Below, in pieces: positions 25,108-27,799 of a stretch of 64,000 nt of DNA. Position 1 is the first letter of the stretch. Each line of letters begins with the position of its first letter. Made by a program: the position numbers and the translations under genes. The DNA is taken from contig CAMBLG010000004.1 of assembly GCA_945868435.1 (NCBI GenBank), positions 124,001 through 188,000 on the forward strand. The letters run 5' to 3'. The DNA is from an uncultured Lachnospiraceae bacterium (GTDB taxonomy: Bacteria > Bacillota > Clostridia > Lachnospirales > Lachnospiraceae). The notes below the pieces were generated by a model. The model saw only the letters and a program-made list of their open reading frames with translations, was not told the origin of the DNA and did no database searches.

Positions 25108-25302
25108 GTTACTATTCACAGCCGATATGGATTCATAGGCAGACTCATCATGCTCGCATGTAAGAGGCTGTCCGTGAATCCATATCGAGCCTGCGAAGCA
25201 GGAACTACACCCTCATAAGCAGTCTTAGCTCCGAAAGGAGTGGGACTGGAGCCTCGAAGAGGCGACGAGTGCGCATATGGGTGGAGGGCTGTGCATAGTA
25301 AC
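25108..25302 (+). repeat. Interspersed repeat, copy B (full length), with structured core
   Basis: The element is bounded by inverted ends GTTACTATTCACAGCC and GGCTGTGCATAGTAAC. Inside are a 13-bp inverted repeat (25123-25135 with 25175-25187), a CCTGC-GAA-GCAGG hairpin (25190-25202), a CAGTC/GACTG stem enclosing GCTCC-GAAA-GGAGT (25220-25248) and GCCTC-GAA-GAGGC (25251-25263). The copy at 1398-1490 shares the outer part. Between copies the tetraloop changes GTAA to GAAA, both GNRA, and a G-C pair becomes G-T, which keeps the fold on this strand. There is no coding capacity; it may be a MITE-like or RNA element. Confidence 0.75.
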
Positions 25303-25378: not shown

Positions 25379-25404
25379 ATGGCATTATGCTGACATTATG
25401 CCAT
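25379..25404. promoter_or_regulatory. 26-bp near-perfect palindrome, probable operator
   Basis: Arms ATGGCATTATG and CATTATGCCAT are separated by 4 bp and match as inverted repeats with one mismatch. The palindrome ends 8 bp upstream of the -35 box of the promoter at 25413, a typical place for an activator or a flanking repressor. Confidence 0.6.
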
Positions 25405-25412
25405 TATGGGGG

Positions 25413-25441
25413 TTGACATTCCGTCTCCGGGAGAGTATGAT
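25413..25441 (+). promoter_or_regulatory. Near-consensus promoter upstream of the hairpin array
   Basis: TTGACA (25413-25418) and TATGAT (25436-25441) are spaced by 17 bp. The expected start near 25448 would transcribe the short ORF at 25527 and the tandem array at 25730. Confidence 0.75.
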
Positions 25442-25526
25442 GGTAACAATTTGATAGACATGGAATACTTTGAGCGGATTTCAGCTTACAAGTTTTCCAA
25501 ATAACGAAGAAAGAGAGGTAATTGCG

Positions 25527-25589
25527 ATGAGAACAACAAGAGAGATTGTAATGAAAAATTGTATGATTACCTCGGCTTTATACAGATAA
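25527..25589 (+). CDS. Short ORF, possible leader peptide (20 codons)
   Basis: ATG at 25527 follows AAAGAGAGGTAATTGCG, a good ribosome binding site, and the frame stops at TAA 25587-25589, giving MRTTREIVMKNCMITSALYR. It lies about 80 bases into the transcript predicted from the 25413 promoter and before the hairpin array. I recognise no family. It could be a leader peptide or the truncated start of a lost gene. The region 25590-25701 holds no clear gene. Confidence 0.4.
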   Translation: MRTTREIVMKNCMITSALYR

Positions 25590-25729
25590 TCCACTCTGTG
25601 TTTCAATTGATTTGTATCTGTTTGTCCGTGGCATTTGTCGCGGCTTTTTCTTTTTCCGGTAATCTTACAATTATCCCAGGATACTCCGACAATTTCATGA
25701 TGTATTTTCTTGGCTACGAGTCAGTTTTG

Positions 25730-26017
25730 GGGCAGTGGACGATGAAGTGTTCTCCTACTGCCCAGTTCTCGCCGAATTTTCTTCACCACGAGCCGGATTC
25801 TGGGCAGTGGACGATGAAATGCTCTTCCACTGCCCAGTTCTCGCCGAATTTTCTTCACCATGAGACGGATTCTGGGCAGTGGACGATGAAATGCTCTTCC
25901 ACTGCCCAGTTCTCGCTATATTTTCTTCGCTGCGAGGCAGATTCTGGGCAGTGGACGATAAAATGCGCTTCTACTGCCCAGTTCCCTGTGGAACTGCTCG
26001 AACCGGAAAATGATTCG
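25730..26017 (+). repeat. Tandem hairpin array, four units of exactly 72 bp
   Basis: Units start at 25730, 25802, 25874 and 25946. Each begins GGGCAGTGGACGAT and reaches TACTGCCCAG or CACTGCCCAG about 25 bases later, forming a stem of about 10 bp, then carries a conserved linker containing ATTTTCTTC. Degenerate half-units flank both sides (about 25702-25729 and 26018-26060). In units 1 and 4 a C in the right arm is T, turning a G-C pair into G-U on the plus strand. A frame stays open through the array (25559-26146, 24-residue repeats) but starts at TTG with no ribosome site, so I do not call it a gene. The stretch 26061-26170 shows nothing recognisable. Confidence 0.8.
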
Positions 26018-26185
26018 TGGCAATTGCGTACGGAAATAGTGCAGACGGAAGTATGGCATATTGTCATAGTCTACCCGGAATCGATTCTGATACAAGTTCG
26101 ATCCCGACTTGAACAAAATATGATGCATGACTACGGAAGTAAATAACACGAAAACCAGCATAATTGAGAAAGGAGCGCATGGAAA

Positions 26186-27799
26186 ATGTTAAGGCGGAGC
26201 TTCCATGCAAATCAAACATTGAATATTATTATACGAAAAGAAACACCACAGGACTATTACAACACGGAACATATGACCATGCGTGCATTCTGGAACATTC
26301 ACGAGCCGGGATGCAACGAACACTATCTGCTGCACATGCTGCGGCAGTCTGACGATTACCTTCCGGAGCTCAGCCGGGTTGCGGAGTTGGATGGAAAAAT
26401 CGTGGGAAGCATCGCCTTTTCCAAGGCGGTCATCAAAGACGGCGACAAGGTGCACGATATCGTCACCTTCGGCCCATTAAGCGTGGAACCGATGGCCCAG
26501 CACCTGGGCGTCGGCAGGATGCTTCTAAAGGAAGGCCTTGCCCTTGCAAAAGCAGCGGGATATCCCGGCATCTGTATCTACGGAGAACCAGGCTATTACC
26601 CGCGGCACGGGTTTGTGACCTGCGACCATTTCGGCATCACGGACCCCGACGGGAAAAATTATGACGCACTGATGGGTTACGAATTGCAGGAAAACGCATT
26701 TGCAGATATCAAGGGCAAGTTGTATGAATCACCGGTATTCGAGGCCTGTAACGACGCCGCTGCTGTGGAAGAATTCAACAAGCAGTTTCCAGCCTATACC
26801 AAGCTAAAATTGAGCTGTCAGTGGGTACACGAGGAGCGCATCGGCCGTATCGAAAACATTCAGAAAAACTCCTACACGATTCAGTTCTGGGAAGCTTCTC
26901 TTCCGGCGAAGCTGAAGGGAAGCTTCTACAATGAGCATAAGGAATTTCCGGTGGTGGGCGACTATGTAACCTTCGACTACAATCCACAGGGCGACTCCAC
27001 CATCCTTACGGTCTGCGACCGAAAAGGCGCACTGAAGCGACCTTTTCCACAGGATCACAGTGTGAAAAATGCCACAGAGCAGACCATGGTGGCAAATGTC
27101 GACTATGTATTTATCGCAAGTTCCTTAAACGACAACTACAACCTGAATCGCATTGCGCGCTACATTGCAGTGGCCGTGTCCGGAAATGCTACTCCTGTAG
27201 TTGTCCTGACCAAGGCAGACCTGTGCCCGGACCCGCTTCCTTATATGGCAGAGATTTTGGAGCTGTCAGACAAGGTCTGCGTCCATGCCGTAAGCGCCAC
27301 GGAAGGAATCGGGCTGAACGAATTGGACACCTATCTGAAACCGGGAAAAACGATTGCATTCCTCGGTTCCTCCGGCGTGGGCAAATCCACTCTGGTCAAT
27401 GCCCTGTGTGGAAATGAGATCATGAAGACCGGCGGCATCCGCGAGAAAGATAAAAAAGGCCGTCACACCACAACCTCCCGACAATTGTTCATGCTCGATT
27501 CCGGTGTGACCATCATTGACACCCCGGGTATGCGGGAGCTGGGAATGAGCGATGTCGAGGAAGGAATCGAAGATACCTTCTCCGATATTGAGGAATTGAT
27601 GGGACAGTGCAAATTCCGGGACTGCGCCCACAACACGGAGCCCGGCTGTGCGATCAAGCAGGCACTCAAGGACGGTACGTTGTCAGAAAAACGTTGGAAT
27701 CTCTATCAAAGTCTGATGATGGAAAACCGGCGAAATGTAGATAAGAAAGCCATCTCCAAATGGTCGAAGCAGATAAAGAAACTGAAGAAACAATCATAA
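26186..27799 (+). CDS. GNAT acetyltransferase fused to ribosome-assembly GTPase RsgA
   Basis: Residues about 12-185 are a GNAT domain (FGPLSVEPMAQHLGVGRMLL is the acetyl-CoA loop; GYYPRHGF follows). From about 212 to the end is RsgA: an OB-fold, then a circularly permuted GTPase with G4 TKAD (342-345) before the P-loop GSSGVGKST (394-402), G3 DTPG, and a zinc site C475, C480, H482, C488. RsgA checks late 30S subunit assembly and is normally about 290-350 residues and unfused. The ATG at 26186 has AGGAG 10 bases upstream; the ATG at 26179 leads to a 57-codon frame that dies. The next gene on the right is a pseudogene, so this is a single-gene unit. Confidence 0.92.
   Translation: MLRRSFHANQTLNIIIRKETPQDYYNTEHMTMRAFWNIHEPGCNEHYLLHMLRQSDDYLPELSRVAELDGKIVGSIAFSKAVIKDGDKVHDIVTFGPLSVEPMAQHLGVGRMLLKEGLALAKAAGYPGICIYGEPGYYPRHGFVTCDHFGITDPDGKNYDALMGYELQENAFADIKGKLYESPVFEACNDAAAVEEFNKQFPAYTKLKLSCQWVHEERIGRIENIQKNSYTIQFWEASLPAKLKGSFYNEHKEFPVVGDYVTFDYNPQGDSTILTVCDRKGALKRPFPQDHSVKNATEQTMVANVDYVFIASSLNDNYNLNRIARYIAVAVSGNATPVVVLTKADLCPDPLPYMAEILELSDKVCVHAVSATEGIGLNELDTYLKPGKTIAFLGSSGVGKSTLVNALCGNEIMKTGGIREKDKKGRHTTTSRQLFMLDSGVTIIDTPGMRELGMSDVEEGIEDTFSDIEELMGQCKFRDCAHNTEPGCAIKQALKDGTLSEKRWNLYQSLMMENRRNVDKKAISKWSKQIKKLKKQS

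Follow-up and report, generated by a model that had tools for sequence, protein, structure and literature searches.

The leader and its downstream gene

The window (the whole stretch of 64,000 nucleotides that was analysed) carries a tandem array of hairpins that lies after an intrinsic terminator and before the gene at 26186 (Table 1). In Pfam, the product of this gene matches PF03193 with an E-value of 5.5e-47, PF13508 with 5.1e-6 and PF00583 with 4.7e-5. An earlier note on this DNA had proposed a near-consensus promoter upstream of the array. The promoter appears credible, as it departs from the consensus at one position only and TTGACA is found by eye at the corresponding place in 8/8 of the relatives listed, and the array is indeed downstream of it. 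A scan of the region gave 4 promoter-like sites compared to 2.5 in shuffled sequences. Immediately 5' of the -35 hexamer, at 25379-25404, an imperfect inverted repeat, ATGGCATTATG / CATTATGCCAT, can be recognized by eye; it is a possible candidate for an operator.

Table 1. Features of the leader, the array and the downstream gene (window coordinates)
Feature	Position	Strand	Basis or remark
Promoter TTGACA, 17-base spacer, TATGAT	25413..25441	+	Consensus matches 11/12
Stem P1: GAGGTAA (25515-25521) with TTACCTC (25567-25573)	25515..25573	+	Pair probabilities 0.99-1.0
Small leader ORF MRTTREIVMKNCMITSALYR, 20 codons and stop	25527..25589	+	Read from sequence
Intrinsic terminator, CCGTGGCATTTGTCGCGG then CTTTTTCTTT	25626..25653	+	Terminator scan; helix conserved over 48 leaders
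Degenerate linker L0, upstream of array	25694..25729		26/36 identity to linker 3; shuffles 0/20,000
Hairpin H1	25730..25765		Plus-strand stem with one G-U and one A-C
Linker L1	25766..25801		Differs from L2 at 2/36
Hairpin H2	25802..25837		36 bases identical to H3
Linker L2	25838..25873		Differs from L3 at 9/36
Hairpin H3	25874..25909		Fold and unit comparison
Linker L3	25910..25945		Own hairpin predicted when unit 3 is folded alone
Hairpin H4	25946..25981		Plus-strand stem with one G-U
Dispersed palindromic element, 3' half (5' half missing or decayed)	26057..26140	+	Copies elsewhere
Gene for GNAT acetyltransferase domain fused to RsgA GTPase N-terminus	26186..27799	+	Pfam

The 5' strand of stem P1 is the Shine-Dalgarno sequence of the small leader ORF, which is thus sequestered in the stem. 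Short ORFs with related ends (ITS, TSV) occupy the same place in relatives, and a scripted rule placed a leader ORF where expected in 45/48 loci; the exceptions are the window itself, where the rule picked another site and the ORF was identified by eye, G303, where another site was picked as well, and G001, which has none. The terminator scan found one terminator, compared with 1.2 expected in shuffles. Two motifs, ACCTCGG and CCGTGG, recur by eye in most of the 48 aligned leaders and could pair with one mismatch (U-U). A promoter, a small ORF with a Shine-Dalgarno sequence and an intrinsic terminator all stand in front of the gene, which is the arrangement of an attenuator.

A conserved leader family

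A search with positions 25400-26170 brought in genome G024, in which the matching bases precede an RsgA gene. The same leader stands before RsgA alone in G020 and G024, and before a GNAT-RsgA fusion in G035, G045, G029, G027, G030 and G010. It is not universal before GNAT or GNAT-RsgA genes, since it is found directly upstream in only 6 of the 14 such loci inspected (out of 28); G053 and more distant loci do not have it directly upstream. A covariance model built from nine leaders matched 34/397 genomes of the family sample at E <= 0.001 (own genome included) and 26/62 genomes of the genus at E <= 0.01 (the nine model genomes included).

The aligned set of 48 copies consists of window positions 25413-25653 and loci L095-L139 and L150-L152. 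In this alignment 93.1% of 665 cells are paired, and both sides changed in 7 of 14 pairs (3.7 in shuffles) and in 39 cells (11.6 in shuffles), although these covariation figures lean towards the model, as the alignment was fitted to it. Shuffles reached values as high in 0/500 trials on four of five measures and in 9/500 on the number of pair types, and shifting the partners by 1-3 columns lowered pairing to 31-59%. In stem P1, 46-48 leaders retain each of the outer five pairs, while the inner two lack pairing in 20 and 9 leaders and show changes on both sides in 1 and 7. The terminator helix is 96.0% paired, with both sides changed in 5 of its 7 pairs. The leader at 25413-25653 thereby has the conserved paired structure that would be expected of an attenuator.

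When the window stretch was compared with Rfam 15 at E <= 1, the only match overlapping the leader was a sub-threshold one to AniS (24.6 bits against a gathering score of 50), which we attribute to chance. At E <= 0.1, no leader match was obtained in the 20 of 48 leader loci that were searched. The only Rfam match in those 20 loci lies elsewhere: a THF riboswitch at L096:3028-3130, with 73.5 bits against a gathering score of 36. The leaders hence form a family that has a covarying structure and, within the loci searched, matches nothing in Rfam 15. Among the literature entries listed, and going by titles and abstract openings, we found no account of a leader of this kind before RsgA.

The gene behind each leader was taken to be the longest ORF after it, which is not always the first gene; 7 of the 47 other loci yielded none. 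The 40 proteins scanned comprised the window's own and 39 of the 40 ORFs behind other leaders, L120 being left out because of masked letters in its locus. RsgA_GTPase was matched by 22 proteins, all of them RsgA or GNAT-RsgA, ABC_membrane by 8, which are ABC exporters, and MatE and NFACT_N by 1 each. ABC_tran matched 28/40, but many of these matches are to the P-loop of RsgA, which is also the case for the window's own protein. RqcH is an NFACT protein of this kind. The genes behind the leader family thus encode ribosome GTPases of the RsgA type, often with a fused acetyltransferase, as well as ABC exporters, a MATE pump and an NFACT protein.

The array and its surroundings

Tandem Repeats Finder (TRF) delimits the array to 25730-25984, with a period of 72, 3.5 copies, 90% matches and a score of 391. 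The earlier note had described four 72-bp units with single-stranded linkers, flanked on both sides by degenerate half-units. Four near-identical hairpins are present at an exact spacing of 72 bp, but only three linkers are repeated. A degenerate linker is found upstream (L0), but its downstream counterpart is weak (18/36, shuffle fraction 0.00065) and a degenerate hairpin is detectable on neither side (12/36 and 13/36, shuffle fractions of about 0.1). Nor are the linkers simply single-stranded, since a fraction of 0.43-0.54 is predicted to be unpaired in linkers 1-3. The units are direct head-to-tail copies, as in a tandem minisatellite.

Folded singly, the 36-base hairpins have energies of -18.5 to -21.9 kcal/mol (z -4.2 to -7.3), and none of 200 shuffles folded equally well. 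The array gave no Rfam match at E <= 1, and among its four units no stem pair is altered on both sides; on these two grounds, membership of a known RNA family was rejected.

The segment made of linker 1 and hairpin 2 differs from that of linker 2 and hairpin 3 at only 2/72 positions, with hairpins 2 and 3 identical. The latest step in the history of the array was hence a single recent 72-bp duplication of linker 1 and hairpin 2. The older duplication steps are more diverged, with 3-5/36 differences between hairpins and 8-14/36 between linkers.

The spacer between terminator and gene differs among relatives, as judged by eye. In the window it contains, in addition to the array, the 3' half of a dispersed palindromic element, which has matches at 2 other places in the same genome, 7 in G037 and 1 in G010. 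The full form of this element is an imperfect palindrome of about 190 bases (L003, L005-L013), and ten copies are predicted by RNAalifold to form 55 pairs, 15 of which show changes on both sides. It has no Rfam match above the gathering scores; two sub-threshold matches were judged to be due to chance. In G045, the spacer before GNAT-RsgA (L062) carries by eye a palindromic insert, AATGAATTTGCATATTC ... GCAAAATTCATT, which is also seen by eye at an unrelated place in G037 (L007, about 1220-1370). Upstream of the promoter, the inverted repeat TGTTACTATTCACAGCC bounds a 195-base stretch at 25108-25302 with an inner inverted repeat at 25123-25187. Its end motif recurs at 2825-2841, and the stretch is probably another dispersed element.

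Distribution of the array

The DNA of the array occurs at one place in its own draft genome (83.7% complete), where no second array was found, and a repeat of the REP, ERIC or MITE type was rejected on this ground. Among the 61 other genomes of the genus no second array was found; a longer query matched 4/62 genomes (own included), with the matches outside its own array falling in the flanks. In the family sample 58/397 genomes (own included) matched the array at E <= 0.1, the best match outside its own genome being 29 bases long with an E-value of 6.7e-4. When the fetched family loci were re-examined at E <= 0.01, the alignments spanned 17-43 bases. The matches in G109 and G265 start at the same query base, yet the two loci do not match each other. 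We consider these short family matches to be chance ones. As only up to 8 candidates per genome were scored in the genus search and up to 2 in the family search, a diverged array could be missed.

The hairpin pattern matched two Ktedonobacter records in genome_contigs, at sites that match on both strands, and these were also taken as chance; viral contigs, plasmids and phages gave no match to the array or hairpin pattern. Among the 48 leader loci, TRF reports a 72-bp array in the window only. Some of the others contain short repeats of 11-36 bases, the strongest of which (score 96) is a 12-base tandem in G100, at 854-952 of the oriented locus L110; it follows the leader and, judged by eye, falls within the beginning of a reading frame. 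In the G029 spacer, a GGGC...CCCAG-like stretch was considered as a relative of the array and dropped: it occurs at one place in G029 and nowhere in G000, and only matches of about 30 bases were found in G053 and G045. The literature entries listed, going by titles and abstract openings, yielded no account of the array.

Origin and possible roles of the array

The most likely explanation is that the array is a local tandem duplication, a minisatellite, lying in the spacer that separates the GNAT-RsgA gene from the terminator of a ribosome-sensing attenuator. We give this reading, which is based on one draft genome, a probability of roughly 0.7. Judged from its sequence, the leader would be a ribosome-mediated transcription attenuator. 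The earlier note had placed the array in the transcript of the promoter. It is downstream of that promoter, but the conserved terminator lies in between, so that transcription should by default stop ahead of the array, near 25650. Stalling of a ribosome in the small ORF would release ACCUCGG, which could then pair with CCGUGG in the 5' arm of the terminator. This candidate antiterminator pairing would let the polymerase pass. As the leader fits ribosome-mediated attenuation, the array should be transcribed from the promoter at 25413-25441 only on read-through, and it would then lie within the 5' leader of the GNAT-RsgA mRNA.

Structure prediction for the read-through RNA leaves the Shine-Dalgarno region of the gene 67% unpaired and places its best pairing partners outside the array. 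The hairpins would thus fold among themselves and leave the ribosome-binding site of the gene mostly open; in the simplest interpretation they would be passive. Their own palindromy may have helped the array to multiply.

Alternatively, the hairpins might have a function in the read-through mRNA, such as stabilizing it, slowing the polymerase or binding a protein, with their copy number tuning the expression of GNAT-RsgA. The single hairpins are strong, the array sits within a leader with predicted regulation, and the pil1 leader of Streptococcus gallolyticus, where repeat number and an attenuator work together, provides a precedent (PMC3894217). Across four copies, 6/36 hairpin columns are variable versus 16/36 linker columns (Fisher p 0.02), which mildly suggests constraint on the hairpins and is the strongest point, albeit mild evidence, against a purely passive array. 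If hairpin 1 and linker 0 are omitted, the comparison becomes 3 versus 9 (p 0.11). Within the hairpin, 2/20 stem columns and 4/16 other columns vary. Against a function speak the absence of the array from the 47 other leader loci, the lack of compensatory changes and the prediction that the ribosome-binding site of the gene does not pair with the array. We regard such a role as unlikely. A more specific form of it, in which the array is a variable-number element whose gains and losses by slippage shift the amount of GNAT-RsgA after read-through and so tune the output of a ribosome-stalling attenuator, seems quite doubtful to us; if true, it would mean heritable variation in the response that protects ribosomes.

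An array of DNA operators, each palindrome binding a dimeric protein, is improbable: the stems are palindromic in DNA too and evenly spaced, but the genome has no other place with such an array and none was found in relatives.

The suggestion of the earlier note that the array is a binding or decoy RNA, that is, a stand-alone structured RNA, is very improbable. The plus strand of the whole array does fold well (-130.5, z -6.5), but the minus strand folds equally well (-130.2, z -7.5), Rfam has no match in the array, the transcript of the promoter should stop before it, and no second copy was found in the collections searched. Nothing demonstrates binding or a decoy, as there is neither a compensatory change among the units nor a second array in those collections. 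A preference for the plus strand had been argued from a T in place of C in units 1 and 4. The change is present, but unit 1 has a second oddity in its stem, an A-C on the plus strand (25739/25754) that becomes a G-U on the minus strand. With both strands folding equally well, the two cancel, and the argument was dropped.

Finally, the frame at 25559-26146 could be read as a repeat-protein gene with 195 residues and a 24-residue repeat. It is open for 213 codons, the period is divisible by three, and mismatches between successive units fall on 9 third, 6 first and 3 second codon positions (n 18; not significant). Its codon score of -0.05 exceeds three quarters of the off-frame segments, being between their 75th (-0.18) and 95th (0.015) percentiles, but it is also between the 5th (-0.09) and 25th (0.11) percentiles of long ORFs; these percentiles are rough, as the codon table came from 29 ORFs of at least 900 bases, some of which overlap one another in antisense and might not be real genes. 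The frame starts at a TTG that lies within the leader ORF but is read in a different frame; it then spans the conserved terminator and extends into the dispersed element, other copies of which have stop codons in this frame. Its start inside the small ORF and its passage through the terminator mean that it is probably not a gene. Searches of viral contigs and of genome_contigs, with six short peptide patterns each, and a search of phages revealed no close relative of the frame. A protein search of the genus gave matches in 13/62 genomes (own included) at E <= 0.1, the best outside its own genome having an E-value of 0.0057, and these weak matches were judged to be chance. The repeat-protein gene put forward in the earlier note has neither a plausible start site nor convincing homologues, and we consider it highly unlikely.

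Comparison with known systems

Bacterial minisatellites (VNTRs) occur in intergenic leaders. The array resembles them in its head-to-tail copies, its recent in-register duplication, its degenerate edge copy and its presence in one genome only; it differs in that half of its unit is a strong palindrome. CRISPR arrays consist of a palindromic repeat of about 36 bases and unique spacers of equal length. The present array also has a palindromic repeat of about 36 bases and equal-length spacing, but linkers L1-L3 are themselves repeats, with 2-9 differences in 36, and a CRISPR array was rejected.

In the pil1 leader of S. gallolyticus, repeats alter the length of the leader peptide (PMC3894217). 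Repeats and an attenuator are likewise combined in one leader in the window, but here the repeats sit behind the terminator.

The array alone is probably a local duplication, and its surroundings, above all the leader, matter more. We liken this leader to two ribosome-mediated transcription attenuators of genes for ribosome rescue and resistance: hflXr/rli80 of Listeria monocytogenes (PMC6310831) and the uORFC-6-1 motif, which stands before hflX (PMC8632094). Both share with it a small ORF, an intrinsic terminator and a downstream gene that acts on the ribosome, and their alternative RNA structures would have a counterpart in the candidate antiterminator pairing. In contrast to them, the Shine-Dalgarno sequence of the small ORF in the window pairs with the 3' end of the ORF itself, the genes behind the leader code mostly for RsgA, GNAT-RsgA or ABC exporters, and the peptide of the window lacks an Arg-Leu-Arg motif, as does the NLRLH of G020 and G024. 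These comparisons establish a likeness to both systems and not membership of either. The arrangement of the leader family before RsgA genes suggests that stalled ribosomes would switch RsgA on, in the manner of hflXr in Listeria.
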